Positions 1,871 to 21,309 of a stretch of 64,000 nt of DNA are shown here, in pieces. The DNA lies in contig NZ_OY734020.1 in NCBI RefSeq assembly GCF_963455295.1, forward strand, positions 4,278,001-4,342,000, written 5' to 3'. Below the pieces are notes generated by a model. The model searched no databases, was not told the DNA's origin, and worked only from the letters and a program-made list of their open reading frames with translations. Origin of the DNA: Candidatus Thiodiazotropha sp. CDECU1. Its GTDB lineage: Bacteria; Pseudomonadota; Gammaproteobacteria; Chromatiales; Chromatiaceae. A program made the translations under genes and the position numbers. The stretch's first letter is position 1; each line of letters opens with the position of its first letter.

Positions 1871-3181
1871 TCAACGACCGGAAGCTCTGAGATTCTGTAC
1901 GGTAAATTTATTCGCCGGATTCAATGCAGGATCGACTTGACCCTTGAACTGACCTGTCGTGCAGTGCATGGCCTGCACATCGATCATGGTGAAGGAGTCA
2001 TCGATAGCCACACCGGTTCCCTTGTTTTTCGGCAGGTGGTGATCCGGATGCGCCTGCCCGATCTGCCAGCTCTTCCACAGATCACCCTTGCGGTCATAGG
2101 TCAGGGTACGCGGGATGGTGAAGGTCTGTGCATCGATATAATGCACTCGCTTGCTGATCGGGTGATTGGGATCCCGCGGCTTGTTCTCCAGTTCATAGAC
2201 CTTGCGCAACTGCCAGGTAATCTGCGGAAAACAGTTACCCTTGTCACCCATCTCGACAAACTGATAGCCGTCTGACTCCTTGTGCTCCTCGGAAAGCTTC
2301 AGGCTGTTGTGATTGTAAAAGGGAACCAGGATGTTTTTAGCCCCCTTGAAGTTCCACTCCATATCGTTGATACGGCCGTTGTACCCCTCGAAGTCCTCGA
2401 TCATCACATCGGATCCGAGAAACGCATCTGTCACCTGCCCCGATGCGAGACGGCGTACCCGCCGTTGAAAGCCGAGATAGAGCCAGGCGTTGTCACGCTT
2501 GAGATCATCCTCATAGCGATGGATCAACAACTGGGTATCCTTGACGTCAAACGGTTCCAGCGCCTGCACATAAATGGCGCGGAACAGCTTTGAAGGATTG
2601 GGTGAGATCTCCGGTAACGGCTCCTGATTGACACGATGCATATAGTTAAGGAAATGGAAATTGAACTTGATGGTTCTCTCCAACTTGCCGGAGTTCATAT
2701 CCTTGTATTTCCAGTAAAACGGATAGATCGCGGCATTATCGCCCCAGTTGTAGCCGTACTTGTAGTTCCAGGCGAGCTTCTCTCCCGCCCGCGGGTCGTC
2801 CAGCGAGGGTTCTTCGGGAAACGGGCGTCCGGCAATGAAGCCCTCGATCTCACCTGATTTCTCACCCAGCTTCACCTTTCCCAGGCCGTCTCTGGTGGCC
2901 TGTACATAGTTGGGATGCAGATCGAACGAAGTGGTCTCACCCACTGTTATCTTTGTCCATCCCTGAGTGACGAACTCGAACATGGCTGGATCGATGACAG
3001 CCTTGAACTGCTCCACATTCGACTGATCGATAACCAGACCCGCTTTCAACCCATCATGGGTCGGTACACCACCCTTGTAGGGGTAGAAACTCATCTCCAC
3101 ATCTTCATTGGTCGCGGCCTGCACAGGCAGCGTGGCGGCTAATACCAGTCCCGCCGTCAGCGTTGATTTAAGCAAACGCAT
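1871..3181 (-). CDS. DUF1329 family periplasmic/outer-membrane-associated protein
   Basis: A 436-residue exported protein with a signal peptide (MRLLKSTLTAGLVLAATLPVQAA). The rest is a DUF1329 domain, recognisable from the long beta-rich body and the motif around FQRRVRRL. The start at 3181 is preceded by GGAGG eight bases upstream; an in-frame ATG 15 bases earlier overlaps that ribosome site and is less likely. DUF1329 proteins have a LolB/LolA-like beta-barrel fold and are nearly always encoded beside DUF1302 outer-membrane proteins and RND/MMPL exporters, as here. They are thought to carry hydrophobic molecules across the periplasm, but no substrate is established. The gene follows the DUF1302 gene by 23 bases and shares its sigma-54-type promoter. 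Confidence 0.9.
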   Translation of the reverse strand: MRLLKSTLTAGLVLAATLPVQAATNEDVEMSFYPYKGGVPTHDGLKAGLVIDQSNVEQFKAVIDPAMFEFVTQGWTKITVGETTSFDLHPNYVQATRDGLGKVKLGEKSGEIEGFIAGRPFPEEPSLDDPRAGEKLAWNYKYGYNWGDNAAIYPFYWKYKDMNSGKLERTIKFNFHFLNYMHRVNQEPLPEISPNPSKLFRAIYVQALEPFDVKDTQLLIHRYEDDLKRDNAWLYLGFQRRVRRLASGQVTDAFLGSDVMIEDFEGYNGRINDMEWNFKGAKNILVPFYNHNSLKLSEEHKESDGYQFVEMGDKGNCFPQITWQLRKVYELENKPRDPNHPISKRVHYIDAQTFTIPRTLTYDRKGDLWKSWQIGQAHPDHHLPKNKGTGVAIDDSFTMIDVQAMHCTTGQFKGQVDPALNPANKFTVQNLRASGR

Positions 3182-3204
3182 GTTTATAACCTCCATAACA
3201 ATAC

Positions 3205-5133
3205 TTAGAAGCGGTAACGCAGGGTGACTTGAAACTCATCCTCTGCCTGGGCCATTCCGATAGGCCCGGATCGAAAACGACCTAGGGGCTCGTATCCGGC
3301 CAGGTTGCGCAGACTCAGATCACCCGGACTGCCGGTTCCGGTAAACGGGGGAAAGGGGTTACAGGCGCGACAATCGTCGAACTCCTGGGCACCATCACCC
3401 ACCTTGACATTGGCACCGACAGTGAGACGCAGATTGTCACTGATCAACCAGTCGACAGAGGGCGCGATTACGCTGGCGTGGGCCTTGAAATCATGCGCCA
3501 TAATCACCTGCGGACTCACCCGGTCGTTCTTGAACCAGCCCTTTATCAGGAAGGTGCCAACATGGTTGATCTCCCAATTGGGGATACCCACTTCGATACC
3601 GTTGACCGTATCTCGCTCATGATCGACCAGGTATTCACCAAACAGCTGGGCGGAGAGCAGGAAGGCACGTCGCTCGTTAAGAAAGGGAATGAAGGTCGGA
3701 CGGTCCCAACCGATCACATACCGGAATACGTCAGAATCTGAATAGAGCTCCGGACGCAGGGTATTGGCAAACTCCTCACCCTCGGTATAGGCCGCCTCGA
3801 CACGAAACACGGACTTGATGTCATCCACATAGAAATCAAGCGATCCGCCGAGAAGATTGACCCGGGGGAAGTGCATATCGAAAGCGATCAGATAATCGTA
3901 GCTCTGGGACTCGATATCGGTAGTGAAAGGATTATCCGCCGTGTCCACCACCCCACGCAGGGAGGGTAGTTGGGAACGGTAGGTGAGGGCGTTCAGCGAG
4001 AAGCCCAAACCCTGATAGTCACCCTCCAGTTTGACGCCGAACTGGGAATTGCTTATGGACCAGTCGGGCAGGTGCACATCGCGGATACCGATGACGTGCT
4101 CGGGAAAATCGGTGGAGAGGGCGCCGCCGGCAAAATTCGCCACCGAGCAGCCGTTATCCCAGCAGTTCTTCATGGCGCGGAAGAAACTACCCGCATCGAG
4201 AATCGCATAGGGTGTGCCGCCCTGACCCAGATTGTTGGGACGGAACTTTTCTAAGTTCCAGACAAACTGCATGTTCAGGTCATCAAAAGTTTCGGTGGCA
4301 CCCATCCGATACTCACCGGTGGCCATCCACATGGGTATGCGGATATCCTCCAGCTCGTCGTAGATGTTGTGGCGTGAATAATCGACAGGATTGATCACAT
4401 CCAGCACGCGAAACAGATCGGTACGTCCCCAGACCACCTGCTGCCGGCCAAAACGGAAGTTCCAGGTGGCGCCACTATCGGTCGGCATGGTGGCATCGAT
4501 GTAGGCCTCCCGCAGGAAGTCGAGTCGATCATTGAATTCCGGATACTTCAGATCGCTCTCATCGTAGTCGAGATAGTCATCGATACAGCCTCGGGAATCC
4601 ACGTCACAGGGCCGTACCGGGACACCCATGCCGACGCCACCCTCTGTATCGTGTATCGCACTGCCAAGATTGTCCAAACCCTGATTGGGATTCTCGGTGG
4701 TGTCGAAGCCGAAGCCCAATACCCCCGTTGAGACATCAGAAGCGCCCCATGCACTGGTACCTGAACCACCGATCGATTCCATTCCGATCTCGCCGCCAGC
4801 CTCGCTGCCGAACTGATCGTCATTGAGATCGTAGACCGCATCGTAGCTCGCACGAAAGGTACCGACGAAACTGAGGTTGGAAAATGGGCCTTTGGCGCCG
4901 TAATCCTTGGAACCCTCGATCTGAACCGTATTGCGCATCTTGCTCAAACCCACATGGCGGCGCGTATAAGTAGCGTTTTCAACAAATCCGTTGATCTGCA
5001 GCGTGCCGTCCTCAGAGGTGTAGGCCAGCGCCTGACCACCACTGAAACAGGCGGCAATGACGGCAGGCAACAGGGCTGCTTGAATGACCGGATGCTTCCT
5101 TCCCGGTTGTTGTTTCTTGCTATCTAGGAACAT
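3205..5133 (-). CDS. DUF1302 family outer-membrane protein
   Basis: A 642-residue protein with an N-terminal signal peptide ending at about GGQALA, many alternating beta strands and a C-terminal phenylalanine (LRYRF), the usual signature of an outer-membrane beta-barrel. DUF1302 proteins pair with DUF1329 proteins and RND exporters in many aromatic-, steroid- and hydrocarbon-degrading bacteria. The start at 5133 is chosen because GGAGGAGG lies 6-8 bases before it; the ATG 18 bases upstream is the source of that ribosome site. A -24/-12 promoter sits about 45 bases upstream. Likely role by inference: passage of hydrophobic substrates through the outer membrane. Substrate and direction are unknown. 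Confidence 0.9.
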   Translation of the reverse strand: MFLDSKKQQPGRKHPVIQAALLPAVIAACFSGGQALAYTSEDGTLQINGFVENATYTRRHVGLSKMRNTVQIEGSKDYGAKGPFSNLSFVGTFRASYDAVYDLNDDQFGSEAGGEIGMESIGGSGTSAWGASDVSTGVLGFGFDTTENPNQGLDNLGSAIHDTEGGVGMGVPVRPCDVDSRGCIDDYLDYDESDLKYPEFNDRLDFLREAYIDATMPTDSGATWNFRFGRQQVVWGRTDLFRVLDVINPVDYSRHNIYDELEDIRIPMWMATGEYRMGATETFDDLNMQFVWNLEKFRPNNLGQGGTPYAILDAGSFFRAMKNCWDNGCSVANFAGGALSTDFPEHVIGIRDVHLPDWSISNSQFGVKLEGDYQGLGFSLNALTYRSQLPSLRGVVDTADNPFTTDIESQSYDYLIAFDMHFPRVNLLGGSLDFYVDDIKSVFRVEAAYTEGEEFANTLRPELYSDSDVFRYVIGWDRPTFIPFLNERRAFLLSAQLFGEYLVDHERDTVNGIEVGIPNWEINHVGTFLIKGWFKNDRVSPQVIMAHDFKAHASVIAPSVDWLISDNLRLTVGANVKVGDGAQEFDDCRACNPFPPFTGTGSPGDLSLRNLAGYEPLGRFRSGPIGMAQAEDEFQVTLRYRF

Positions 5134-5178
5134 CCTAGCCTCCTCCCACAACGTAATTAATGTATGCAGAACTAACTA

Positions 5179-5194
5179 TGCAGCTGGCATGCCA
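5179..5194 (-). promoter_or_regulatory. Sigma-54 (-24/-12) promoter of the DUF1302-DUF1329 operon
   Basis: On the minus strand the sequence reads TTGGCATGCCAGCTGCAT. The GG and GC doublets have exactly the canonical spacing of the TGGCACG-N4-TTGCA consensus, and only two core positions deviate. Predicted transcription would start near 5167, giving a leader of about 35 bases before the ATG at 5133. A sigma-54 promoter needs an enhancer-binding activator, and the only candidate in the window is the DmpR-type protein at 24888. A weak UAS-like dyad (TTCGATAATTATTCAA, 5304-5319) lies about 144 bases upstream of the predicted start. Confidence 0.75.
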
Positions 5195-5259
5195 AGTTTT
5201 AAGTCATTGAATATATTGATATTTATAAACCACTTAAGAGGCGGGTTACCGATATAGTA

Positions 5260-5275
5260 AAAATATCGATATTTT
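5260..5275. promoter_or_regulatory. 16-bp perfect palindrome AAAATATCGATATTTT, candidate operator
   Basis: A perfect inverted repeat lies in the AT-rich region about 100 bases upstream of the predicted DUF1302 transcription start. The same ATCGAT-centred motif recurs several times between dmpP and the GntR gene (16409-16473). That suggests one regulator acts at both places, most simply the GntR protein encoded at 16587. No binding evidence exists. Confidence 0.5.
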
Positions 5276-5322
5276 CTTTTATCATATGATGATTGGTGAT
5301 TATTTCGATAATTATTCAAGAC

Positions 5323-5352
5323 CAAAAAAAAGGCCGGAAATGAGTTCCGGCC
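5323..5352 (-). terminator. Rho-independent terminator downstream of the RND transporter gene
   Basis: An eight-base-pair stem GGCCGGAA/TTCCGGCC with a five-base loop is followed on the minus strand by a run of eight T. It lies about 100 bases downstream of the RND stop at 5454 and upstream of the DUF1302 promoter, so it separates the two transcripts. Confidence 0.85.
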
Positions 5353-5453: not shown

Positions 5454-7847
5454 TCATGCTGTTGCTTTCTCCGCATACAGCACACCGTCCTCATCGTAGT
5501 GGGCGCTGCCGATGAAGCTGGGGCGAAAGATCATCACCCAGGAGGGCACGATAAAGGTTGCCGCCAGGGCGTTGAGGATCAACATCACCACCAGCAACAG
5601 GGCTGCATCCGCCTGAAAACGCAGATCCGACAGGAAGACCCACATGATCACACCGCCGATCAGGCAGGCGGCGGTAAAACCGATTGCCTTGCCGGTGGTG
5701 GCGATGGCGCGTAACACGGCATGCTGCAGATCGCCGGAGGCCTTGGCGGTCTCCTCCCTGATCCGGTCCATGATGTAGATGGAGTAATCGATGCCGACAC
5801 CTATGCCCACAGCGATAATCGGCACCGTATTCACATTGATACCGATTGCCGCGAGTCCCATATAGGCATAGGTCGAAACGGTGCAGAACACCATCGCCAG
5901 GAACATGATGAACCCGGCATGCAGTGACATATAGAACCAGGTTACGAAGATGAAGATCAGGGCAAGCACCAGGGGAATGATCAGCATATTGCTTTCGTAT
6001 GCCGACTCGTTCATGGCGGCGGTGACGCCGACCAGACCGCCGGCCAGCTCGATATGCAGTCCCTCCACCTGATTGGCCGGGTCGTTGATCCACTCCTTGG
6101 CACGATGGATCGCACGCCGAATGGTCTTCGCCTGATGGTCCTTGTAGAAGAAGACTATGTTCGCCACCCGGTCGTCGGTATCGACAAACTCCTTGAGTGC
6201 ACCGGGTACCGGGCTGGACGCCATGTAGGCGAACATCAGACCACCCACATAGGCCTCGGTGTCAGGAATAATCGCCCAGCGGGGATCGTCGGAGTGAAAA
6301 ATCCGGTTCACCTGCTTGACCAGATCGGGTACCGCCTTGGCGCCCCCGAGTTCCGGATCGAGCAACATATGGTTTTGAAAGGCCTCGATGGCCTGCAGCA
6401 CATCAGGACGTTTCATCCCGCCGTTGTTATCCGTTCTGGCGACGATGTAGAGCTCTTCTGATCCTGGAAAACGCTCGTTGATCGCCTTCGACGACAGATT
6501 GTAGTCGTGATCCAGATAGAGAATTGGCGAACCGGGCTCCGACTCGCCGATCTGCACCCGGCTGCTGAGCTGAGCCCCTACCAGCAGGATCAGACCGGCA
6601 ATGCCCAGCACGATAATACCCCCCTGGCGGTTGGCGACCAGGGCCGCTACCTTGCCAAACAGGGCGTCCTCCGCCGCTGGCCGCTTGGCGGCCTTTTTTG
6701 GCTTTGGCAGCAGGGAGAGTATCAACGGCACGGCTATCAGAACAGTGAACACCACGCAGACCGCCCACAGGGATGCATAGATACCCAGTTTCACATTGAT
6801 CGGTACCGATCCGAGGGCAATCAGCAGCAATCCTATGGCGTCCGACACGATCCCCAGACTGCCAGGCCGGAAGAGTGAATCGAAGGTACGGTGGGCCGCT
6901 TCCCGGGAGTCATCCACCTCTTCCAACTCGCCATAAAAGCGCTGCACCAACTGAATGGCATGGGACATGGCCCGCGCCGAGATGAGAAACGGGATCACCA
7001 GGGTCAGGGGGTCCAGGTTGTAATCGAGCAGTGACAGGATACCTAGGCCCCAGATTGCCGAGATGGTGATACCGAACATGGGCAGGAGAATGCCGTAGGC
7101 CCGACGGAAATAGATGATCAACAGGAACAGCATGATCCCCACCGTGGTGGTGAAGATCAGGAACAGCTGATCCAGGTAACTGTAGACCCAGCCCCAGAGC
7201 ATGGGTTGTCCGGTGGCATAGATCGCCACGTCCTCGGCCCCTTCAGTCGCCCGAATCTGTTGCAGCTGACCAAAGATTTCAGCATAGTTCAGCTGCCCCT
7301 CGTTGAACTGGGCCTTGATCAGCGCCGCCTTGAGATCGGGAGAGACCAGCAGGCCGAAGACCCTGGGGTTGCTCATCACGTCGTCGCGCAGCTTGTTCAG
7401 CTCCTCACTCGTCCAGTCGGTCTTGAGTGGATCGTAGTAGGGCTGGGAGTTGACGTCGCCGGTATCGGTGAGCCAGACCTTGCGCGAGGTGCGATGGGTC
7501 AGACTCGCCAGCAGGTTGTGATTGATGCCACTCACATTATCCACCGCCTGGGTGATACGGTGGATACGGGCCAGGGTCTCCTGGGTGAAGATGTCGCCCT
7601 TTTCCACCACGATCGCCATCACCACGTTGTTGGCGCCACCAAAGGTGTCGCGAATGGAGTTGTGCAGCTTGATGTACTCATGCTCCTGGGGCAACAGATC
7701 AGAAAAATCCGAGTACATCTGTACCTTGGGTACCTGGAAGGCGAAAAACAGGGTCAACGCCGCGATAAGCACAAGAAAGACCTTGGGATAGCGGAACACC
7801 AGATCGTCGATGTTTTTCAGCCAGTGGGAGAAGGCGTGGATGGTCAT
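5454..7847 (-). CDS. RND superfamily (MMPL-type) transporter
   Basis: A 797-residue inner-membrane protein with the classical duplicated RND layout: helix 1 at about residues 20-40, a large periplasmic loop, helices 2-6 from about 225 to 380, helix 7 near 415, a second periplasmic loop, and helices 8-12 from about 630 to the end. The family motif GIGVGIDYSIYIMDR lies in the second helix bundle. It resembles the hydrophobe/lipid exporter branch (MmpL, HpnN, BCCT-like), not the multidrug AcrB branch. It starts at 7847, overlapping the YCF48-type lipoprotein gene by ATGA. Position in the aromatic island suggests movement of aromatic or hydrophobic compounds, or membrane-lipid adjustment under solvent stress; this is inference. 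Confidence 0.9.
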   Translation of the reverse strand: MTIHAFSHWLKNIDDLVFRYPKVFLVLIAALTLFFAFQVPKVQMYSDFSDLLPQEHEYIKLHNSIRDTFGGANNVVMAIVVEKGDIFTQETLARIHRITQAVDNVSGINHNLLASLTHRTSRKVWLTDTGDVNSQPYYDPLKTDWTSEELNKLRDDVMSNPRVFGLLVSPDLKAALIKAQFNEGQLNYAEIFGQLQQIRATEGAEDVAIYATGQPMLWGWVYSYLDQLFLIFTTTVGIMLFLLIIYFRRAYGILLPMFGITISAIWGLGILSLLDYNLDPLTLVIPFLISARAMSHAIQLVQRFYGELEEVDDSREAAHRTFDSLFRPGSLGIVSDAIGLLLIALGSVPINVKLGIYASLWAVCVVFTVLIAVPLILSLLPKPKKAAKRPAAEDALFGKVAALVANRQGGIIVLGIAGLILLVGAQLSSRVQIGESEPGSPILYLDHDYNLSSKAINERFPGSEELYIVARTDNNGGMKRPDVLQAIEAFQNHMLLDPELGGAKAVPDLVKQVNRIFHSDDPRWAIIPDTEAYVGGLMFAYMASSPVPGALKEFVDTDDRVANIVFFYKDHQAKTIRRAIHRAKEWINDPANQVEGLHIELAGGLVGVTAAMNESAYESNMLIIPLVLALIFIFVTWFYMSLHAGFIMFLAMVFCTVSTYAYMGLAAIGINVNTVPIIAVGIGVGIDYSIYIMDRIREETAKASGDLQHAVLRAIATTGKAIGFTAACLIGGVIMWVFLSDLRFQADAALLLVVMLILNALAATFIVPSWVMIFRPSFIGSAHYDEDGVLYAEKATA

Positions 7848-8830
7848 TGGGTATCTCCCGCAGATGCTGTTTCTATGGGACTGATGGTTCCGCGTCCCCC
7901 CATCACCAGCAGCCGTTCATCGCCCTGGGGTATGGCGGTGATGAGGTAGGAGAAGAGGCGCGGCGCCTCGGGTACCCGCACCCAGCGGTCACCCGCCAGC
8001 TGCAGCAGGGTACCGTTGTCGCCGGTGGCGTAGAGCCGGTCACCCTGGGGAATCAGGTTATAGATTGGGGCAGTGCTGACCGATGCCTGACGCTGCCAGG
8101 TCTCGCCCCGGTCCCGGGTATGCAGGATGGTGCCGCTGAGTCCCGCGACCCATCCCTGGTCGAGGCTGGGGAACCAGGCCGCCATGGGATAGAACTCGTT
8201 GGGGATATCGTTGCCACGCTGCCAACTCTCTCCCCCATCCTCGGTGAAGAAGAGTGATCCGAATTCACCGGTGACCACGGCGCGCTCCCTATCGACCCAC
8301 TGGATAGAGGTGAACTGCATATCCTCCTGCTGTGATATCTCCTGCCAGTTACCCTGGGTTTCGTCACTGTGGATCAGGGTACTGAAACTGGCGGCAATCC
8401 AGAACCTTCCCCGGGGATCGCAACTGATCGCCATGGGACTCTCCATGGTCTCCAGTTGCACCGCCCGCCAGTCGTCGCCCTGGGCATCGGAGAGCCACAC
8501 CTTGCGTAGCGTATCGATGGCGGCGAAACTGCCATCTTCGCAACTGGCCACAGCGATCAACGAGGATTGGCTGGGGAGTTGGGTACGCTGCCAGGTCTCT
8601 CCCTTGTCCAGACTGGTGAGCACGGTACCGTAATCCCCCACCGCTATTATGCGCCGGTGATTCGATGCCGCCGCTTTCAACTGGTCGAAGCGGTAGATCG
8701 GTTTTTCGATCTCCCGCTCCACCAGGCTCAGGTCGAGTGGCGCCTCGCAGCCGGCCAGAATGCCGCCAATCACGAGCCAGACAGCGACACCGAGTCTCCT
8801 GCCCAGCCTCAATCGACAATCTTTTCTCAT
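7844..8830 (-). CDS. YCF48/BNR-repeat lipoprotein linked to RND transporter
   Basis: A 328-residue lipoprotein: basic N-terminus, hydrophobic stretch and lipobox (LAGC, cysteine about residue 28). A beta-propeller of repeated blades follows with the sequence type GDxGTxxxTxDxGxTW (for example VGDYGTVLTSLDKGETW and GEFGSLFFTEDGGESW). This is the YCF48/Hcf136 photosystem-II assembly-factor repeat, but the organism shows no sign of photosynthesis. In heterotrophs such proteins sit beside RND/MMPL genes, as here with a four-base overlap, and may be a periplasmic partner of the pump. The start at 8830 is preferred because GGGAGG lies nine bases upstream; ATGs at 8854 and 8839 are possible. Confidence 0.85.
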   Translation of the reverse strand: MRKDCRLRLGRRLGVAVWLVIGGILAGCEAPLDLSLVEREIEKPIYRFDQLKAAASNHRRIIAVGDYGTVLTSLDKGETWQRTQLPSQSSLIAVASCEDGSFAAIDTLRKVWLSDAQGDDWRAVQLETMESPMAISCDPRGRFWIAASFSTLIHSDETQGNWQEISQQEDMQFTSIQWVDRERAVVTGEFGSLFFTEDGGESWQRGNDIPNEFYPMAAWFPSLDQGWVAGLSGTILHTRDRGETWQRQASVSTAPIYNLIPQGDRLYATGDNGTLLQLAGDRWVRVPEAPRLFSYLITAIPQGDERLLVMGGRGTISPIETASAGDTQ

Positions 8831-8855
8831 CTTCCTCATCCTCCCACCGATCAAA

Positions 8856-8908
8856 GGGCCAGGCTGGCCCCAGGTACGGTCAGTGGTTCATAGACGCCTC
8901 TGGCGTCT
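8856..8908. other. Two short hairpins between dmpH and the YCF48-type gene
   Basis: Between the dmpH stop and the next gene lie AGACGCC/GGCGTCT (8892-8908) and GGGCCA/TGGCCC (8856-8870). On the minus strand neither has a convincing T tract (TATG and TTTG follow), so they look like processing or attenuating hairpins. The first is followed by TTTTCGTTTT on the plus strand. Confidence 0.35.
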
Positions 8909-8974: not shown

Positions 8975-9766
8975 TCAAACAAAGCGCATCCCCACGCTGC
9001 CCAGTCCCTGGTAGCGCACGTTGAGGCAATCACCCTTCTCCATGGCCACCGCGGCAGTGATGCCGCCGGTGAGGATCAGGGTGCCGGCGGGAATCTCCTC
9101 GTCCCGCTCGCCCAGCATGTTGGCCAGCAGGGCCACGCTGGCAGCCGGATGGCCCAGCACCGCGGCGCCGGCTCCCAGCTCCACCACCTGACCGTTCTTC
9201 TCCATCACCACGCCGAGGGTGCGCATGTCGACGTCAGCGGGCGCGGCCATCTGGCCACCCAGCACATAGCGGGAGGAAGAGGCGTTGTCGGCGATGACGC
9301 TGGCCAGATCGAAACGAAAGTTCTCGTAGCGGGAATCGATGATCTCCACCGCCGGGATAACGAAGTCAGTCGCCGCCAGCACATTGCCGATGTGACAGCC
9401 AGGGCCCTTCAGGGGGGCCTTGGTGACGAAGGCGAGCTCCGCCTCCACCTTGGGATGGATCAGCTGATCGGTCTCGATCTCGCCGCCGTCCGGGCGGTCG
9501 AAGTAGTCGGCGAGAAAGCCGTAGATGGGCGTCTCCACTCCCATCTGCTTCATCTTCGCCCGGGAGGTGAGTCCCACCTTGAGGCCGCTGATCAGATTGC
9601 CCCGCTCCAGCTTGCGACGACGAATCGCGAACTGGATGTCGTAGGCGTCGTCGAAGTCCATATCGGGGAAGCGATCGGTGATCTTGGTCGCCTCCTTCGC
9701 CTGCAGCTCGCAGTCTTCGAGATACTCGGCCAGCTCTTCGATGATCTCGTTGCTCAGGGTACTCAT
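8975..9766 (-). CDS. dmpH: 4-oxalocrotonate decarboxylase (meta-cleavage pathway)
   Basis: A 263-residue protein of the hydratase/decarboxylase (FAH-like) family. It carries the blocks typical of DmpH/XylI, including GLKVGLTSRAKMKQMGVETP, HPKVEAELAF and the C-terminal GLGSVGMRFV. It decarboxylates the keto form of 4-oxalocrotonate to 2-hydroxypenta-2,4-dienoate, with metal ligands in the HPKVEAE region and Mg as cofactor in the family. Its start overlaps the dmpG stop by one base (TGATG). The paralogous hydratase dmpE is at 12386-13174, and the two enzymes form a physical complex in Pseudomonas. No tautomerase gene (dmpI) follows, which is unusual. Confidence 0.94.
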   Translation of the reverse strand: MSTLSNEIIEELAEYLEDCELQAKEATKITDRFPDMDFDDAYDIQFAIRRRKLERGNLISGLKVGLTSRAKMKQMGVETPIYGFLADYFDRPDGGEIETDQLIHPKVEAELAFVTKAPLKGPGCHIGNVLAATDFVIPAVEIIDSRYENFRFDLASVIADNASSSRYVLGGQMAAPADVDMRTLGVVMEKNGQVVELGAGAAVLGHPAASVALLANMLGERDEEIPAGTLILTGGITAAVAMEKGDCLNVRYQGLGSVGMRFV

Positions 9767-10806
9767 CAGGCAGTCTCCCCCAGCTTGTTCTGGGCCTTGG
9801 CCATCTCCATGGCCACGTCTTCGATCATGTCCTCCTGGCCGCCGATCATGCCGCGCTTGCCCAGCTCCACCAGCACGTCCCGGGAGGAGACGCCGTAGCG
9901 CTGCTGGGCCCGCTTGGCAAAGAGCAGGAAGGAGGAGTAGACCCCGGCGTAGCCAAGGGTGAGGGCGTCGCGATCGACGCGAATGGGCTGGTCGAGCATG
10001 GGCACGATCAGGTCCTCGGCCACGTCCATCAGCTTGAACAGGTCGGCCCCGGTCTCCACGCCCATGCGCTCGGCCACGGCGACAAAAACCTCCAGCGGGG
10101 TGTTGCCGGCACCGGCGCCCATACCGGCGGCGGAGCCGTCGATGCGGTTGGCCCCTGCTTCGACAGCGGCGAGAGAATTGATAACGCCGAGGGAGAGGTT
10201 GTGGTGACCGTGGAAGCCCAGCTCGGTGGCCGGGTCCAGGGCCTCGCGCACCGCGCTGAGTCGACTGGTGACATCCTCCGGCAGCATGTAGCCGGCGGAG
10301 TCGGTGACATAGATGCAGTTGGCGCCGTAGCCCTGCATCAGCCTGGCCTGTTCGATCAGCTTCTCGGGCCCCACCATGTGGGACATCATGAGAAAGCCGA
10401 CCGTATCCAGCCCCAGCTCACAGGACTTCTTGATGTGCTGCTCCGAGACATCCGCCTCGGTACAGTGGGTGGCGACACGGATGGTATCCACACCGCAGTC
10501 GGCGGCCATCTCCAGCTCCGGCACGGTGCCGATACCCGGCAGCAGCAGGGCGGAGATCTTGGCCTTCTTTACATGGGGCCGTACCGCGCGCAGATACTCC
10601 TCGTCGGTGTGGGCGGGGAAGCCGTAGTTGACCGAGGCGCCGGCCAGGCCGTCGCCGTGGGTCACTTCGATCATCGGCACCCCGGCATCATCCAGGGCGG
10701 AGGCGACGGCGACCATCTGATCCAGGGTTATCTGGTGGCGCTTGGCATGCATGCCGTCACGCAGGCTCATGTCGTGGATGGTGATTTTCTTTCCGTTCAG
10801 GTTCAT
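9766..10806 (-). CDS. dmpG: 4-hydroxy-2-oxovalerate aldolase
   Basis: A 346-residue TIM-barrel aldolase of the HMG-CoA-lyase-like family. The N-terminal [19 protein letters not shown] carries the catalytic aspartate/histidine region, [11 protein letters not shown] carries the metal-binding histidines, and [16 protein letters not shown] follows. It splits 4-hydroxy-2-oxovalerate into pyruvate and acetaldehyde and forms a channelling complex with the acetaldehyde dehydrogenase encoded just upstream (11 bases apart). Length is normal for DmpG/BphI. The one-base overlap with dmpH indicates tight operon packing. Confidence 0.96.
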
Positions 10807-10817
10807 CGCTTGTTACC

Positions 10818-11735
10818 TCAGGCGGTGGCCTTTTCAGGCGCCAATACCAGGCTGCCGTTAAGAATCTCTTCCGCGAACATCTCCGCGGTACGCAGACCGG
10901 CGGCGGTCATGATGTCCAGGTTACCGGCGTACTTGGGCAGGTAGTCGCCCAGGCCCTCCACCTCCATGAAGACCGAGACCCGGTTGCCGTCGAACACCGG
11001 GCCGTTCTTCAGCCGGTAGCCGGGCACGTATTTCTGCACCTCGGCGATCATGTCGTGGATCGACTGGGTGATGGCGGCCTGATCCGGCTCGTCCTCGGTG
11101 ATGCAGTGAACGGTGTCGCGCATCATCAGCGGCGGTTCCGCCGGGTTGAGGATGATGATCGCCTTGCCCTTCCTGGCGCCGCCCACCTTCTCCACCGCGC
11201 CGGCGGTGGTCTGGGTAAACTCATCGATGTTCTTGCGGGTGCCGGGACCGGCGGACCGGGAGGAGACGGTGGCGACGATCTCGCCGTAGGCCACAGGCTG
11301 CACCCGACTCACCGCCGCCACCATGGGGATGGTGGCCTGGCCGCCGCAGGTGACCATGTTGACGTTCAGCTCGCGCTTGCCCACGTGATCTTTCAGATTC
11401 ACCGGCGGTACGCAGAAGGGACCGATGGCGGCGGGGGTGAGGTCGATCATGATCGAACCCTGCTCCTGCACCTTGCGGTCGTTCTCTCCGTGCACGTAGG
11501 CCGAGGTGGCGTCGAAACAGATCTGCACATTGTCTTCGCGCATATGGGGCACCAGGCCGTCGACACCCTCGTGGGTGGTCTTCAGGCCCAGCTTGCGGGC
11601 CCGTTCAAGCCCCTCGGAGTCGGGGTCGATACCGACCATCCAGACCGGGTTGATCCAGTCGCTGCGCAACGCCTTGTAGAGCAGATCGGTACCGATGTTG
11701 CCGGAACCGATCAGGGCTGCGTTGATTTTGCTCAT
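10818..11735 (-). CDS. dmpF: Acetaldehyde dehydrogenase (acetylating)
   Basis: A 305-residue enzyme of the DmpF/BphJ/MhpF family. The N-terminal NAD fold has [12 protein letters not shown]. The catalytic cysteine is in [13 protein letters not shown], and [17 protein letters not shown] is a strong family signature. It turns acetaldehyde, CoA and NAD+ into acetyl-CoA, working on acetaldehyde channelled from DmpG. Gene order dmpF-dmpG-dmpH is as in Pseudomonas. The product feeds the TCA cycle. Confidence 0.96.
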
Positions 11736-11774
11736 AGCTTCAGTCCTCGTTACTTTCAGGGCGAATAGATCGAC

Positions 11775-12368
11775 CTAACTCAAATGTTTACCGGCCTGCC
11801 AGCCGCTCTTGGACAGATGTTCCTCTGCCGTCTCCAGGGGCTCCGCCTCCAGCGGCGTGGCCAGGCTGTCGTTCCAGCGGTTGAAGAATCCAAACAGTCC
11901 GATCACCGCCAGCATCTCGACGATGGCCTCCTCGCTCCAGTGGGCCTTCAGGGACTGGAACAGCTCGTCAGTTACATCGTTGGGCTGGGAGGCGGCGGCG
12001 AGGGCGAAATCGAGGGCCACCCGCTCCGCCTCGCTGTAGTGCTCGCTGCTGCGGTAGTTCCAGACATCCTCCAGCTTCTCCACCGGGATGCCGTGGCGCT
12101 TGGCGCTGACCGCGGTGTGGGCCTTGCAGTACTGACAGCCGGCGGCGCTGCTGGCGACATGGGCCACCAGCCGCTTGAAACCCAGGTCCACCTCTCCATC
12201 CGGGTCGTAGACCGCGGCGCTGAACTGGATGAAGGCGTCCACCAGCTTCGGCTTGCGCTGCATGGTGAGCAGGCTGTTGGGCACGAAGCCCAGGGTCTTT
12301 TCAAAGAACGCGAATCGCTCCGACAATGCGGCATGCAGATCGATGGGCAGTGGATCGAGTCGACTCAT
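11775..12368 (-). CDS. AhpD-like/carboxymuconolactone decarboxylase family protein
   Basis: A 197-residue all-helical protein with the AhpD motif CQYCKAH (cysteines about residues 78 and 81, histidine 84) preceded by the conserved SSAAG. It resembles the peroxidase-related branch of the family. CxxC members reduce peroxides with a thiol partner, while true carboxymuconolactone decarboxylases lack the cysteines; here they are present. It lies between dmpE and dmpF, where Pseudomonas dmp operons have no gene. A role in protecting the oxygen-sensitive ring-cleavage or hydroxylase iron centres, or in detoxifying peroxide from uncoupled hydroxylation, is plausible but inferred. Confidence 0.85.
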   Translation of the reverse strand: MSRLDPLPIDLHAALSERFAFFEKTLGFVPNSLLTMQRKPKLVDAFIQFSAAVYDPDGEVDLGFKRLVAHVASSAAGCQYCKAHTAVSAKRHGIPVEKLEDVWNYRSSEHYSEAERVALDFALAAASQPNDVTDELFQSLKAHWSEEAIVEMLAVIGLFGFFNRWNDSLATPLEAEPLETAEEHLSKSGWQAGKHLS

Positions 12369-12385
12369 GACAGGTCTCCCGGGAA

Positions 12386-13174
12386 TCAGGTGAAGCGAAC
12401 CGAAGCGGAACCGATACCGCCGATGTCCACACGCATGCTGTCCCCCGCCTGGATCGGCTCCAGGGGTACCAGGGAACCGGAGAGGATCACCTCACCGGCC
12501 TTCAAAGGAATACCGAAACGGCCCAGGGTGTTGGCCAGCCAGGCCACGCAGTTGACCGGCGATCCCAGGGCGGCGGCACCGGCGCCGGTGGAGAGCAGCT
12601 CGCCGTTCTTCTCCACCACCATGCCGGCGGTGGCCAGGTCGACCTTGCGCGGATCCACCGCGTTGTCACCCAGCACGAAGAGGCCGCAGGAGGCGTTGTC
12701 CGCCACCGTGTCCTGGATCTTGATCTTCCAGTCGCGAATGCGGGAGTCGACGATCTCGAAGCAGGGAATCACCGCCTCGGTGGCGCGCAATACATCCGCG
12801 TTGCTGACACCGGGACCGAACAGGTCGCGTTTCAGCATGAAGGCGATCTCCCCCTCCGCCCGGGGCTGGATCAGCAGCTCGCTTACCGACATCTCGTCGC
12901 CGTTACCGAAGACCATGCTGTCGGTCAGATAACCGAAATCGGGCTGGTGCACGTTGAGCATGTTCTGCACCGCCTTGGAGGTGACACCGATCTTCTTGCC
13001 GATGATGCTCTCCCCCGCCTCGACCCGGCGGTTCACCATGCGCAGGGAGATGTGGTAGGCGTCTTCGATGGTGATCCCAGGTTCCCGTTCTGTCAGCGGT
13101 TCGACCATGCGGCGTTGGCTGAGGGCATCGAAGAGTTCGTCCCCCAGTGCGTGGATGCGTTGTTCGTTCAGCAT
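12386..13174 (-). CDS. dmpE: 2-hydroxypenta-2,4-dienoate (2-oxopent-4-enoate) hydratase
   Basis: A 262-residue member of the hydratase/decarboxylase family, paralogous to dmpH. It has GKKIGVTSKAVQNML, QPRAEGEIAF and a closing GIGSASVRFT, as expected for DmpE/XylJ/MhpD. It adds water to 2-hydroxypentadienoate to make 4-hydroxy-2-oxovalerate, the DmpG substrate. The start at 13174 follows GAGGAG by eight bases and gives the usual family length. An open frame continues far upstream into dmpC but is not coding there. Confidence 0.94.
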   Translation of the reverse strand: MLNEQRIHALGDELFDALSQRRMVEPLTEREPGITIEDAYHISLRMVNRRVEAGESIIGKKIGVTSKAVQNMLNVHQPDFGYLTDSMVFGNGDEMSVSELLIQPRAEGEIAFMLKRDLFGPGVSNADVLRATEAVIPCFEIVDSRIRDWKIKIQDTVADNASCGLFVLGDNAVDPRKVDLATAGMVVEKNGELLSTGAGAAALGSPVNCVAWLANTLGRFGIPLKAGEVILSGSLVPLEPIQAGDSMRVDIGGIGSASVRFT

Positions 13175-13184
13175 CGATGACTCC

Positions 13185-14645
13185 TCAAAGCTTGATACAA
13201 ACGTTCTTGAGTTCGGTATAGAACTCGAGGGAGTGGACACCACCCTCGCGACCGATACCCGACTGCTTGGCGCCTCCAAAGGGGGTGCGCAGGTCACGCA
13301 GGAACCAGGAGTTGACCCAGGCGATACCCGCATCCGTCTGGGCTGCAACCCGGTGTGCCCGCGAACTGTTCTCGGTCCAGATCGCCGTCGCCAACCCATA
13401 CTCGGTATCGTTGGCCAGGTCGATCACCTCCTCCTCGCTGTCGAAGGGACGGATGTGACAGCAGGGGCCGAATATCTCTTCTCGAACACAGCTGGCATCG
13501 TCGGGCAGATCGGTCCAGATAGTGGGTTGCACCCAGCAGCCGCCGGACAGGCTGTCCGGCATATTGGGTGTGCTGCCACCGGTGATGACAGTAGCGCCCT
13601 CCTGCTCCGCTTTACGGTAGTAGGAGAGAACCTTGTCCCGATGCTCCTGACTGATCAGCGGCCCCATGTCTGTCTCAGGATCATCCCATCTACCCAATTT
13701 CAAAGACTCGGCACCAGCCTTGAGGCGATTGACGAATTCCTCATAGATTGGACGTTCCACATAGACCCGCTCAGTACCAAGGCACACCTGACCACAATTG
13801 GCGAATGCTGAGCGCAGGGTCCCTTCGATGGCCTTCTCCAGATCGCAGTCGGCAAACACCAGGGCCGGGTTCTTGCCTCCAAGTTCGAAGGAGATATCGG
13901 TGATATCGTCTGCGGCCGCTTTCATGATCGCAGCACCGGTACCTGTCTCACCGGTGAAGGTGATCCCATCCACCCCTTTGTGCCGGGTGAGAAACTCCCC
14001 CGCCGAATTCGGGCCGAAGCCGTGCACCACGTTGTAGACTCCCTTGGGTATTCCAACCTGGTTCATCACCTCCCCCAGCAGGGCGGTGGTGAACGGTGTC
14101 TCTTCCGACGGCTTGACCACCACCGTGTTACCGCATGCCAGTGCGGGACCAACCTTCCAGGTCATCAACAGCAAAGGCAGGTTCCAGGGACTGATCACGG
14201 CGATCACCCCCTTCGGTTTACGTAACGAGTAATTCAGTGCCCCTTTCCCATCCGGGGTGTCGAGCATGAAGCTCTCTGTGGGCACATTCTTCACCACATC
14301 GGCAAACACCTTGAAGTTGGCAGCACCGCGGGGAATATCGATATGACAAGCGAGCTTCTGCGGCTTGCCGGTATCCATACACTCCGCTTCGAGAAATTCA
14401 TCGAAGCGAGCGCTGATACCATCCGCCAGTTTGTGCAGCAGATCGGTTCGTTCCGCCAGCGGCATTCGGCCCCACTCACCACCTAGTGCATTCCGCGCCG
14501 AGTTGACCGCCGCATCCACCTCGGGCGCGCCAGCCTCATGCACTATGCCGATCTTCTGTCCAGTCGCCGGATTGATATTGTCGAACATCTTGCCTGATGC
14601 AGAGCCGACAAATTCTCCATTGATGAAGTGTTTGACCTCTTTCAT
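13185..14645 (-). CDS. dmpC: 2-hydroxymuconic semialdehyde dehydrogenase
   Basis: A 486-residue NAD-dependent aldehyde dehydrogenase. Visible are the family blocks ISPWNLPLLLMTWKVGPALA, FTGETGTGAAIM (NAD site), ELGGKNPALVF (general-base glutamate), FANCGQVCLGTERVYVER (catalytic cysteine) and EIFGPCCHIRPF, which are highly typical of DmpC/XylG. It oxidises the ring-cleavage product to 4-oxalocrotonate. I prefer the ATG at 14645 because the product then begins MKEVKHFINGEF, as in known homologues; an in-frame ATG at 14660 exists, and neither has a strong ribosome site. The C-terminus almost touches the dmpE ribosome site. Confidence 0.95.
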   Translation of the reverse strand: MKEVKHFINGEFVGSASGKMFDNINPATGQKIGIVHEAGAPEVDAAVNSARNALGGEWGRMPLAERTDLLHKLADGISARFDEFLEAECMDTGKPQKLACHIDIPRGAANFKVFADVVKNVPTESFMLDTPDGKGALNYSLRKPKGVIAVISPWNLPLLLMTWKVGPALACGNTVVVKPSEETPFTTALLGEVMNQVGIPKGVYNVVHGFGPNSAGEFLTRHKGVDGITFTGETGTGAAIMKAAADDITDISFELGGKNPALVFADCDLEKAIEGTLRSAFANCGQVCLGTERVYVERPIYEEFVNRLKAGAESLKLGRWDDPETDMGPLISQEHRDKVLSYYRKAEQEGATVITGGSTPNMPDSLSGGCWVQPTIWTDLPDDASCVREEIFGPCCHIRPFDSEEEVIDLANDTEYGLATAIWTENSSRAHRVAAQTDAGIAWVNSWFLRDLRTPFGGAKQSGIGREGGVHSLEFYTELKNVCIKL

Positions 14646-14745
14646 TCTATTCACCGTCATTACGTCAAAACTGATAATTACCTGTTAATCTAATTGGCGA
14701 TATGTCTTGATCGACTGGTCACGCAGACGGCCATGATCCACATAC

Positions 14746-14946
14746 TCAACTGGCTTTCTTGTCGTAGGCCTGCCGATTACCACTGCATTTATCGAATTCA
14801 CTCCAGCTCTTCATGAAATGCCGGGAATCATCGGCATGTCCTGTTTCTGTAAAGCCGTCTATGCACAACCTGTCTCTTGAGATGCCTACTTCACCCAGGG
14901 TGATACGGATAAACCTGACCCCATGATCGTCAATCGTTACCGCCAT
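14746..14946 (-). CDS. Small conserved-position protein of unknown function in the dmp operon
   Basis: A 66-residue acidic/polar frame with a perfect AGGAGG ribosome site six bases before its ATG (14946). It lies between dmpQ and dmpC on the same strand with gaps of 68 and 100 bases. No signal peptide, membrane helix or cofactor motif is visible; the C-terminal part holds one cysteine (FDKCSGN). It is not a 4-oxalocrotonate tautomerase: it lacks the N-terminal proline and the family pattern. I do not recognise it. The ribosome site and the position in the operon make it more credible than a chance frame. Confidence 0.55.
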   Translation of the reverse strand: MAVTIDDHGVRFIRITLGEVGISRDRLCIDGFTETGHADDSRHFMKSWSEFDKCSGNRQAYDKKAS

Positions 14947-15014
14947 GAATTCCTCCTGCCGGGACCCTTCCCGTGTTAGTTGATGTTGTGCCTGTTTTTT
15001 GTAGATATGGAACG

Positions 15015-15329
15015 CTATGCTGCGCTCTCGTTACTCGCCTTCGGTTTTGGTGCCAACCTCAGGGAAAGATTGCTCTTGGGGATAACGCGACACGAGAGCA
15101 CTATGCCCTTGCGCTCATCCTCTTCTGTCACGTGGTCACGGTTCATCTTGCGGATCTCATACTCTCCCTGGATGATCTGTACACGGCAGATACCACAACC
15201 GCCGCCCTTGCAACCAACCGGAATTGGCGCCAATCCCTGGGCCTGCATGGCATGCAGTAGGCGCTGCTCTTCCCTGCATTGAAACTGTGCATCCTTGTCT
15301 TCCACGGTGATTTCGAATCGTGCGGACAT
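15015..15329 (-). CDS. dmpQ: [2Fe-2S] ferredoxin of the meta-cleavage pathway
   Basis: A 104-residue plant-type ferredoxin with cluster ligands C40, C45, C48 and C80 (GCKGGGCGICRV and LSCRV). Proteins of the XylT/DmpQ/NahT group re-reduce the active-site iron of catechol 2,3-dioxygenase after it is oxidised by substituted catechols. That matches the presence of dmpB at 19826, although here an inserted cassette separates the two genes by about 4.5 kb. The gene starts two bases after the dmpP stop. Confidence 0.92.
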   Translation of the reverse strand: MSARFEITVEDKDAQFQCREEQRLLHAMQAQGLAPIPVGCKGGGCGICRVQIIQGEYEIRKMNRDHVTEEDERKGIVLSCRVIPKSNLSLRLAPKPKASNESAA

Positions 15330-15331
15330 GA

Positions 15332-16396
15332 TCAGAGTCTCTTGAATACAGGGCTGCGCTTGTTGTTCTCTTCCCCTTTGGTGAGAAAGCGCTCGGTGAA
15401 GATATCGTTTTCGAACAGCCGGCCCTGCATCAGGGCACGAATCGAAGCTTCAATCATTACCGGTGGCCCACACAGATAGGCGGTGTTGCCAGAAAATGTA
15501 TTGTTGAATTGGCGCTGCGCAGCCTCATGTACAAAGCCGGTTTCACCATCCCAGTCATCACCCTCCTCCATTTGCGAAAGCACCGGGATATAGTTGAAAT
15601 TGGAATGCTGATCAGCCAGCGAGCGGAAGAGCGCTTCGTCGTACAGGTCGCGTTTGGCCCGAACCCCATGCAGCAGGGTAATCGGCATCGTGCAAGCCGG
15701 ATCCGCTTCCAACAGATCGAGAATCATCGACTTTGGACTGGAAAGCCCTGTACCTCCGGCGATAAAAATCATTGGCTCGGAACGGGATTTGCGCACGAAA
15801 AACCGGCCATAGGGACCCGTAATCTTCAGCCTGTCTCCGAGCTTAAGCTGGCTATGGATGATGGGAGTCGCTTCACCATCAGCGACCAAACGGATATGGA
15901 GTTCGATTATATTTCGGTCAGAAGGCTTGCTTGCCAGTGAGAAGGCGCGTGGTATCTCAACCCCGGGGACATACAAGTTGATATATTGTCCCGCCTGAAA
16001 GTCGATACCTTCGCCATCCAGTTGCAGCCAGACCCCTTTTACATCATGGGTGAGGTTTTCCAGCCTGACGATCTCAGCCCCAAAGTCCTTCACGGGGATG
16101 ACCCTCGCATCGGGATCTTCATCGATGTCAGCCTCGATCACCGTATCCGATTCAAGGGTGGCGCAACAGGCCAAGACCTTTCCCTCTTCCCGCTCCATAT
16201 CCATCAGGGCAAAGTTGGAGGCGTCTCCCAGATCCACATCCCCTTCGAGCACCTCGACCTTGCAGCTACCACACAAGCCATGACAACAGGCATGGGGCAT
16301 CCAAATTCCCGCGCGCAAACATGCATCGAGGATGTTTTGATCCTCTTCTACAACCACCTCGTCGCCGGTCGGCTCGATAGTAAGTTGGTATGCCAT
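15332..16396 (-). CDS. dmpP: Phenol hydroxylase reductase component (P5)
   Basis: A 354-residue three-domain electron-transfer protein: an N-terminal [2Fe-2S] domain (CCHGLCGSCKVEV, ligands about C37, C42, C45 and C77), an FAD-binding domain (PRAFSLAS) and an NAD-binding domain (IFIAGGTGLSSPKSM and AYLCGPPVMIEA). It passes electrons from NADH to the diiron hydroxylase DmpLNO. In classical operons it follows dmpO directly. Here it is more than 4 kb away and heads a second minus-strand block with its own upstream region of ATCGAT repeats, next to the divergent GntR gene. Confidence 0.95.
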   Translation of the reverse strand: MAYQLTIEPTGDEVVVEEDQNILDACLRAGIWMPHACCHGLCGSCKVEVLEGDVDLGDASNFALMDMEREEGKVLACCATLESDTVIEADIDEDPDARVIPVKDFGAEIVRLENLTHDVKGVWLQLDGEGIDFQAGQYINLYVPGVEIPRAFSLASKPSDRNIIELHIRLVADGEATPIIHSQLKLGDRLKITGPYGRFFVRKSRSEPMIFIAGGTGLSSPKSMILDLLEADPACTMPITLLHGVRAKRDLYDEALFRSLADQHSNFNYIPVLSQMEEGDDWDGETGFVHEAAQRQFNNTFSGNTAYLCGPPVMIEASIRALMQGRLFENDIFTERFLTKGEENNKRSPVFKRL

Positions 16397-16408: not shown

Positions 16409-16505
16409 AAAATATCGATAAACACAAGAATAGCGATTTTTTATCGATTTGCAAGAATTTTATCGATATTTTTGCATATTGATGATGTTCGACTAAAATA
16501 TTGAT
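16409..16505. promoter_or_regulatory. Cluster of ATCGAT/ATTGAT operator-like repeats between dmpP and the GntR gene
   Basis: Three ATCGAT cores are centred at about 16416, 16445 and 16464, with AT-rich flanks resembling the palindrome at 5260-5275 (right half GATATTTT shared exactly). Two ATTGAT variants follow at about 16480 and 16502. A further ATCGATAT lies just before the GntR start (16581). The dense cluster in a 190-base divergent promoter region suggests multiple binding of one regulator, probably the adjacent GntR protein controlling itself and dmpP. I find no good sigma-54 site here, so the dmpP block probably uses a vegetative promoter. Confidence 0.5.
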
Positions 16506-16586
16506 AATCGTTAGTGTCACGGACACCCATAGCGGGTAGGGTAGATATCAGATATCATTCAGTTCACCGAATGGAAAAACATCGAT

Positions 16587-17294
16587 ATGGCAAGAACTTA
16601 CATCGAACAAACTGAAGCTAACGGGTCCAAGACCCTGTCCGACCAGGCCTATCTGCGACTCCGCTCAGATATCATTCATGGTGATCTACAACCGGATGAG
16701 AAACTCCGCATAGAACACCTGCGTACCGTATACGGTGTCGGCGCAAGCCCACTCCGTGAAGCATTGAGCCGCCTCACTGCGGATGGCTTCGTTACCGCGG
16801 AAGGTCAGCGCGGTTTTCGCGTTGCCCCAATGTCCGAGGAGGACCTTGCTGACATTACACGACTGCGGATCCTGCTTGAAAAACAGGCCCTCTCTCAGAG
16901 CATTGAACAGGGTGACGATGCCTGGGAATCTCGCATCGTTGCCACCTTCTATCAACTGGAGAAGATTGAGGAATCGGAAGAGAGGGACCCTGCCGAATGG
17001 GAGCTCCGCAATCACGATTTTCACGAAGCGCTGACCGCCGCCTGCAACTCAAAATGGCTGCGCCGCTTCTACGGCATTCTCTATGATCAGCACAAGCGCT
17101 ACAGAAACATTGCCCTGAGCACAGAGATTCCCCGTGATCTGCACCAGGAACATGAAGAGCTGCGCAATGCCGCTCTGGCAAGGGACACAAAGCGGGCCTG
17201 CAAGGCCATTGAGCAACATATCCTGAGGACGGCTGAAATCACCCAGCGAGTACTGCAGAATGAGGCGCGCAAGGACGAACAGGAGATCGCCTGA
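16587..17294 (+). CDS. GntR-family regulator (FadR/FCD subfamily)
   Basis: A 235-residue regulator. Residues about 15-80 form the winged helix-turn-helix (LRIEHLRTVYGVGASPLREALSRL). The C-terminal FCD domain shows the metal/ligand-site residues in NHDFHEAL, HQEHEEL and EQHIL. GntR repressors of phenol genes are known in Comamonas (AphS, PhcS), where they silence the hydroxylase operon without inducer. This gene could play that part. It is divergent from dmpP across the ATCGAT cluster. The start at 16587 is the first ATG that yields a normal N-terminus; no strong ribosome site is visible. Confidence 0.88.
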   Translation: MARTYIEQTEANGSKTLSDQAYLRLRSDIIHGDLQPDEKLRIEHLRTVYGVGASPLREALSRLTADGFVTAEGQRGFRVAPMSEEDLADITRLRILLEKQALSQSIEQGDDAWESRIVATFYQLEKIEESEERDPAEWELRNHDFHEALTAACNSKWLRRFYGILYDQHKRYRNIALSTEIPRDLHQEHEELRNAALARDTKRACKAIEQHILRTAEITQRVLQNEARKDEQEIA

Positions 17295-20746: not shown

Positions 20747-20832
20747 TAGTCTAGCCTCCTCTGGTCACCGTTCTCTACAACGGTATAAAAAATAGTTACG
20801 CTCCGCTTCAATCTCGGCGGATCTTTGCTTGG

Positions 20833-21201: not shown

Positions 21202-21252
21202 CTGCTGCTCCTCGTTATAAGTTCGGTTTTCATCGTTGTCGTCTCGTTATTC

Positions 21253-21309
21253 GGTGCGGCAAGCCGCACCCTACCTATTGATCGTGTGTAGGGTGCGGCT
21301 TGCCGCACC
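21253..21309. repeat. REP-like double palindrome between dmpN and dmpO
   Basis: Two 22-base arms (21253-21274 and 21288-21309) are perfect reverse complements separated by 13 bases. Each arm is itself nearly palindromic (GGTGCGGCAAGCCGCACC). This is the structure of a BIME/REP pair of the kind mobilised by REP-associated transposases. As RNA it would form a very stable hairpin inside the phenol hydroxylase transcript, and could protect or segment the mRNA. Confidence 0.85.

Follow-up and report, generated by a model that had tools for sequence, protein, structure and literature searches.

Four adjacent genes in the phenol island of Candidatus Thiodiazotropha sp. CDECU1, a sulfur bacterium that lives as a lucinid-clam symbiont, encode a YCF48-type lipoprotein, an RND pump, a DUF1302 protein and a DUF1329 protein. 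The window, meaning the whole 64,000-nucleotide stretch analyzed here (G000:C1:4278001-4342000), comes from a single-contig genome of 4.46 Mb. Our favored reading, to which we give a probability of about 60%, is that these genes form an Ame-type four-part cassette in the phenol regulon of the symbiont and that their products pass hydrophobic aromatics (or lipids disturbed by them) along a relay driven by protons, most likely outward. It is built on observed gene content, linkage, co-occurrence, shared motifs and predicted folds. The original prediction had presented the system as possibly undescribed; this was rejected, as AmeABCD (PMC6394551), the Aph regulons (PMC6449761) and mutants in Delftia (PMC3958437) and Pseudomonas putida (PMC10866462) precede it with the same four families. 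Because the four families were already published as Ame-type, the locus is a well-anchored further example and not a new system. New here are the linkage in 63 of 63 loci, the co-occurrence at class and genus level, a second promoter, the regulatory motifs and the fold likenesses.

All four genes are on the minus strand. The YCF48/BNR beta-propeller lipoprotein (AmeC/PhnL-type; 7844-8839; Pfam PF14870, E 1.2e-18) is encoded in an open reading frame (ORF) of 7844-8854 with a probable ATG at 8839 or 8830. The MMPL-family pump (AmeD-type, HAE3-like; 5454-7847; PF03176, E 1.8e-25) had TIGR00921 (HAE3; E 4.2e-40) as its best NCBIfam match, at 137.5 bits and thus below the 351.9-bit cut-off. The predicted outer-membrane beta-barrel DUF1302 (AmeA-type; 3205-5133; E 1.4e-47) lies in ORF 3205-5151, where ATG 5133 with a good Shine-Dalgarno sequence was preferred as start over TTG 5151; PF06980 was its sole match (E up to 0.001), the OprD sequence family being unmatched. 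DUF1329 (AmeB-type; 1871-3196; PF07044, E 1.6e-76) is a LolA-like periplasmic protein by its match to LolA_like (E 8.7e-17). The four families had been assigned to 5454-8830, a span that covers no more than the pump and lipoprotein genes, with DUF1302 and DUF1329 outside it at 1871-5133; that the four occur together was borne out by the Pfam matches. The predicted four-base overlap of the pump and lipoprotein genes is real (ATGA, 7844-7847), and the lipoprotein assignment agrees with a LAGC lipobox. Among the named loci, which are the best 80 of 351 confirmed relatives, only 14 have ATGA at the YCF48 stop, and 61 of the 80 YCF48 orthologues show a lipobox pattern; neither the overlap nor the lipoprotein anchor was therefore retained as a family-defining feature.

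Gene order was counted in the 63 loci with room for four genes, 17 of the 80 being too short. The four genes stood together as one cassette on one strand in all 63, a grouping far above chance. The order YCF48-RND-DUF1302-DUF1329 was found in 62, three of them with an extra upstream DUF1329 (adjacent downstream duplicates were not counted apart), and the halves were swapped in one. The closest named pump, at 99% identity, is that of the Ctena orbiculata symbiont (L026), whose coordinates are those of the pump in the same-species genome G039. The next seven loci (92-94% identity) comprise four Candidatus Thiodiazotropha, two clam symbionts and one Chromatiales bacterium, and Marinobacter and Pseudomonas strains are also among the relatives. 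Aromatic markers accompanied the cassette in 59 of 80 loci overall and in 45 of the 51 with 9 kb on both sides, where 39 had an enzyme and 33 a DmpR-type gene. Plasmids of Aromatoleum aromaticum EbN1 and Methylibium petroleiphilum PM1 carry more distant cassettes, with the order kept in the former and rearranged in the latter. On the conjugative plasmid NZ_CP142043.1 of Pseudomonas veronii T1 (L003/L138), YCF48 and a 60%-identical pump lie with phenol genes and a sigma-54 regulator, and a DUF1329 gene lies on the other side of the record start; this pump was matched in two pieces, and its gene is itself unlisted there.

Co-occurrence was surveyed at two levels. In the host class (114 genomes, one per genus), the three families other than YCF48 were profiled: 23 genomes had DUF1302 (E≤1e-15), 17 had DUF1329 (E≤1e-15), 19 had an AmeD-like pump (E≤1e-60) and 16 had the three together. 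Each of the 17 genomes with DUF1329 also had the pump, where 2.8 co-occurrences were expected. Phylogenetic profiling against the aromatic pathway, which had been suggested with the original prediction, gave a matching pattern in the genus: 17 of the 22 genomes have both the marker, the phenol hydroxylase large subunit, and a pump orthologue of at least 91% identity, and the other five have neither (p 3.8e-5, relatedness ignored). One loss left a trace. In G001, one of these five genomes (L134, G001:C87), the first 27 codons of DmpP directly precede DUF1302, which is followed by a split DUF1329, and neither phenol hydroxylase nor the orthologous pump was found in the genome; from its sequence, this locus is apparently a deletion scar marking loss of the region. 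G001 does carry a 64%-identical second cassette. Such second four-gene cassettes (about 64% pump identity) occur in some genomes of the genus (G003:C2 665-686 kb, G004:C1 4143-4164 kb, and G001:C69 and C47), and the same genomes have a third pump (about 35%) with DUF1302 and DUF1329, YCF48 being unmatched at E 1e-20. In the CDECU1 genome, a further MMPL pump (G000:C1:1512834-1515517) neighbors a weak match to DUF1329 (25.3 bits); this pair may be a two-part form of the system, and weak matches of the same kind recur across the genus.

The cassette is divided at the level of transcription signals. A terminator-like hairpin with a T8 run (5332-5352, minus strand) follows the pump gene and separates the half-operons, and DUF1302-DUF1329 is, by its predicted signals, a half-operon of its own behind this hairpin and its own promoter. 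That putative promoter, of the -24/-12 (sigma-54) type, is TGGCATGCCAGCTGCA at 5179-5194 (minus strand); in the nine genus loci of this orthologous cassette, the site scored 10-11 of 12 against a threshold of at least 10 and is 60-64 bp 5' of the DUF1302 ATG. An AphS/BphS-type palindrome upstream of DUF1302, AAAATATCGATATTTT (5260-5275), fits the published motif AAATmTCGAkATTT (PMC6449761), and in L032 and L073 the palindrome AATATCGATATTTT at this place deviates at one or two positions. A predicted AphR/DmpR-like upstream activating site (5278-5292) is 159-164 bp before the same ATG and, with at most three mismatches, was found in 9/9 genus loci (0.07 expected). The block of AphR-like site, palindrome and -24/-12 element was kept in 8/8 aligned genus loci.

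Promoter scans covered 81 loci for the pump and YCF48, 72 for DUF1302 and 68 for DUF1329. Sites of the sigma-54 type were found upstream of DUF1302 in 10/72 (the nine genus loci and L034; 1.5 expected) and upstream of YCF48 in 37/81 (1.7 expected), all 37 outside the genus; the negative controls gave 0/81 upstream of the pump (1.4 expected) and 0/68 upstream of DUF1329 (0.5 expected). AphR-like sites were present in 30 of 43 loci outside the genus with a DmpR-type gene, compared to 0.97 expected. The AphS motif, with up to two mismatches, matched nine times in the window (0.46 expected): six matches cluster at 16409-16589 between DmpP and a GntR/FCD regulator gene, three are at 5210-5275 and there are none elsewhere in the window. 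Matches recurred upstream of DUF1302 in 9/9 genus loci and upstream of DmpP in 7/7 that reach that region. The claim that the genes lie near two regulated promoters was right in substance, one being the region with AphS motifs that precedes the DmpP-meta operon and the other the sigma-54-type/AphS-motif promoter between pump and DUF1302. Since sites stand at both halves, both half-operons appear, on these motifs, to belong to the phenol regulon; a repressor and a sigma-54 activator would act here by analogy with betaproteobacterial precedent.

The genes of the phenol pathway itself are close by. A meta-cleavage lower pathway with a DmpP-like reductase (8975-16396, minus strand) reads towards YCF48-RND and includes 4-hydroxy-2-oxovalerate aldolase, acetaldehyde dehydrogenase, 2-hydroxymuconic semialdehyde dehydrogenase and two FAA-hydrolase-fold proteins that we take to be DmpE and DmpH, labels of our own that are possibly swapped. 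A hairpin at 8892-8908 between DmpE and YCF48 is terminator-like on the plus strand only. Divergent from DmpP is the gene for a protein with GntR and FCD domains (16587-17294, plus strand), a candidate AphS/BphS counterpart; its best NCBIfam match was CsiR (177.8 bits, below the 218 cut-off), and its best plasmid matches (43-49% identity) include several from aromatic degraders. Catechol 2,3-dioxygenase and multicomponent phenol hydroxylase genes follow (19826-24530, minus strand; -24/-12-like site at 24512-24527), and then a DmpR/AphR/MobR-type sigma-54 activator (24867-26552, plus strand; MobR, 648.9 bits, below the 999 cut-off). Directly after the GntR/FCD gene, a second MMPL pump (17413-19722, plus strand) has acids in transmembrane helices TM4 and TM10 and could share the promoter of that gene; no DUF1302 or DUF1329 gene neighbors it, and a relative with 60% identity in G001 (L134) is cut by the contig end. 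The window has no tRNA, and an Rfam scan of it gave no match at gathering thresholds.

Structures were predicted as single chains. The fold of the pump resembles solved MmpL3/4/5, NPC1 and Patched: 739 residues aligned with NPC1 at 3.9 Å, compared to about 585-630 residues at about 7-8 Å with HAE1 pumps, none of which was among the 50 best Foldseek rows. TM10 carries D687/Y688 (Asp-Tyr), and in TM4 R292 is invariant in the lineage and H296 occupies the position of the canonical acid. The best solved relatives of DUF1329 are 3bk5, 9tp6 and 4z48. In the DUF1302 model, a barrel, no helix exceeds 17 residues and a TolC-like helical tunnel is absent; TolC-type folds were absent among the matched rows of the fold comparisons, an absence that by itself excludes nothing. 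No membrane-fusion-protein family was matched by the 18 ORFs that were scanned out of the 38 listed for 1-22.9 kb of the window, the rest of the genome not having been searched for one.

The earlier proposal that the four proteins act as one envelope-spanning system is supported, and its tie to aromatic catabolism is drawn from linkage, presence/absence and motifs. On our favored reading, the MmpL/NPC1-like pump, proton-coupled through D687-Y688 of TM10 and R292/H296 of TM4, would extract its cargo from the inner membrane, this cargo being either a hydrophobic aromatic or a lipid of the membrane that such an aromatic has disturbed. The YCF48 propeller would be the closest partner of the pump, LolA-like DUF1329 would ferry the cargo through the periplasm to the outer-membrane DUF1302 barrel, and the net flow would most likely be outward, as detoxification. 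Cargo, order of hand-over, direction and proton coupling are what we infer.

Several observations speak against this reading or limit its support. The DUF1302-DUF1329 pair is on the opposite strand in L095 (one of the 17 loci outside the order count), and the correlation of pairwise distances among the four proteins (r 0.64-0.87, 64 loci) would result equally from shared descent of the cassette alone. The aromatic-marker counts are biased upward because the loci are the best 80 of 351, DmpC (an aldehyde dehydrogenase), DmpR-type regulators and similar markers lack specificity, and six of the 51 loci with 9-kb flanks had no marker. In the genus survey, G009 and G012 were counted as present with a partial pump match at or near contig ends, as was G010 with one in-frame TAG in the pump. 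This TAG (L073, G010:C2:223087-225477, Candidatus Thiodiazotropha endolucinida COS) may be a sequencing error or mark a pseudogene. G015 has DUF1302 and DUF1329 on a 3.3-kb contig with no pump detected, and G001 retains the phenol-type DUF1302-DUF1329 at its broken locus without an orthologous pump; both depart from strict all-or-none inheritance and are apparently remnants. For the motifs, the nine genus loci are close kin, a kinship that is outside the shuffle model. Counts in the window alone were not above chance for the -24/-12 pattern (5, compared to 6.27 expected) or the AphR-like pattern (5, compared to 2.51), and these motifs carry weight because their position is conserved in relatives. 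The bare 8-base core TATCGATA occurs seven times in the window, four of them outside both promoter regions, six further one-mismatch AphS sites exist elsewhere in the genome, and the second-cassette loci L040, L041 and L064 have neither a sigma-54 site at 10/12 nor an AphS match. The TM4 comparison covers 50 pump rows against five other MMPL proteins from one genome. Evidence on direction is divided: uptake agrees with the growth phenotypes and the channel-like DUF1302, export with the tolerance phenotypes and remodeling with the Delftia data.

The strongest alternative, although we consider it unlikely, is an uptake relay in which hydrophobic aromatics enter through DUF1302 and are carried by DUF1329, and the pump with YCF48 delivers them to, or extracts them at, the inner membrane for catabolism. 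The nearest solved folds of the DUF1302 model by VIA-align speak for it, being mainly OprD/Occ/BenF-like channels such as OpdK with vanillate, and OprD/Occ channels serve uptake. The exporter AlgE is likewise among the fold matches, and the likeness of the barrel therefore gives no direction. A presence pattern equal to that of phenol hydroxylase in the genus also suits uptake. However, phenol and cresols pass membranes unaided, and RND transporters are mostly known to move cargo outward or between leaflets. Homologues in P. putida are required for growth on Tween 20 (PMC10866462), and an ameB insertion in Castellaniella defragrans impaired growth on monoterpenes, both of which fit uptake too. 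The sole deletion study reads as export (PMC6394551), as loss of ameABCD lowered monoterpene tolerance and slightly raised Nile Red in de-energized cells; in real-time Nile Red efflux, the mutant and the wild type were almost identical.

A related proposal, which we hold to be unlikely, is that the Ame cassette is no efflux pump but a bidirectional or inward relay for hydrophobes, made of an OprD/BenF-like barrel, a LolA-like shuttle and an NPC1-like transporter, in which R292 and H296 of TM4 together with the Asp-Tyr of TM10 could reverse or alter proton coupling compared to classical RND exporters. Rather improbable, in our judgment, is envelope remodeling, in which aromatics trigger lipid movement to the outer membrane or vesicles and are not themselves carried. 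The likeness of the pump to the lipid transporters MmpL3 and NPC1 is consistent with it, as are the far fewer vesicles and nanopods and slower growth on phenanthrene after disruption of the YCF48-type phnL in Delftia (PMC3958437) and the reported occurrence of both DUF1302 and DUF1329 proteins in nanopod preparations (PMC3110197). These data come from a single organism, the vesicle link could be indirect, and the available text of PMC3958437 does not address polar effects of the disruption. An ordinary tripartite efflux pump of the HAE1 type, comparable to AcrAB-TolC, is very improbable given the barrel model of DUF1302 (a possible TolC elsewhere in the genome being left aside), the better alignment of the pump with NPC1 and the absence of a fusion-protein match in the scanned ORFs.

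The locus extends a thinly studied published envelope transporter to a chemosynthetic animal symbiont, where an identical presence/absence pattern and shared regulatory motifs tie it to the phenol pathway. In a limited search, we saw no published report of phenol or aromatic degradation in Thiodiazotropha, although one may exist. For two Pfam families of unknown function, the locus offers a testable model of an OprD-like barrel, a LolA-like shuttle and an NPC1-like pump with altered TM4. Marinobacter and Pseudomonas relatives provide hosts in which export, uptake and membrane remodeling could be distinguished, and many relatives have a sigma-54-type cassette site.

Among known systems, MmpL3/4/5, NPC1 and Patched share the predicted fold of the pump and differ in substrates; they are not known to have DUF1302 or DUF1329 partners. 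Published accounts of the four-part type give, in their available text, no biochemical proof of substrate or direction, in agreement with the original prediction. In P. putida, PP_0765/PP_0766 and PP_2018/PP_2019 share DUF1302, DUF1329, a periplasmic protein, a transporter and related phenotypes with the cassette, but are two separate loci linked to Tween 20; AlphaFold contacts were strong for PP_2018-PP_2019 and weak for PP_0766-PP_0765 and PP_0766-PP_2019 (PMC10866462). The phn island of Delftia Cs1-4 numbers PhnL (DelCs14_1758) next to DUF1302 (1756) and DUF1329 (1757) (PMC3958437, PMC3110197), and differs in its link to nanopods and an S-layer protein and in acting on phenanthrene instead of phenol; PMC13101534 credits the growth defect to the DUF1329 gene, while PMC3958437 names phnL as disrupted. 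In benzene-degrading Desulfobacterota, a related cluster (DUF1329, a YCF48-related protein and an MMPL transporter) is highly expressed, and a Zoogloea phenol hydroxylase cluster contains DUF1302 and DUF1329. The Aph regulons of Betaproteobacteria place COG4447, COG1033, PF07044 and DUF1302 under predicted control by AphS (GntR), AphR (XylR/DmpR type) or AphT, with a 2019 proposal that they help in coping with toxic aromatics, and the published AphS motif recurs here (PMC6449761). Unlike those regulons, the present host is a chemosynthetic symbiont outside the Betaproteobacteria, and the GntR/FCD (16587) and MobR/DmpR-type (24867) genes are apart instead of forming an aphRS operon. The nearest counterpart, AmeABCD of C. 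defragrans, was published in 2018 together with its deletion phenotype and a proposal of tetrapartite assembly, and among the literature matches listed its name occurs in PMC6394551 only. The likeness to it is one of families and gene content. Both cassettes join DUF1302, DUF1329, COG4447/YCF48 and an RND pump in a conserved unit within a hydrocarbon-degradation island; that of C. defragrans is linked to monoterpenes, whereas that of the symbiont is linked to phenol and meta-cleavage and is split by a terminator-like hairpin and a predicted second promoter.

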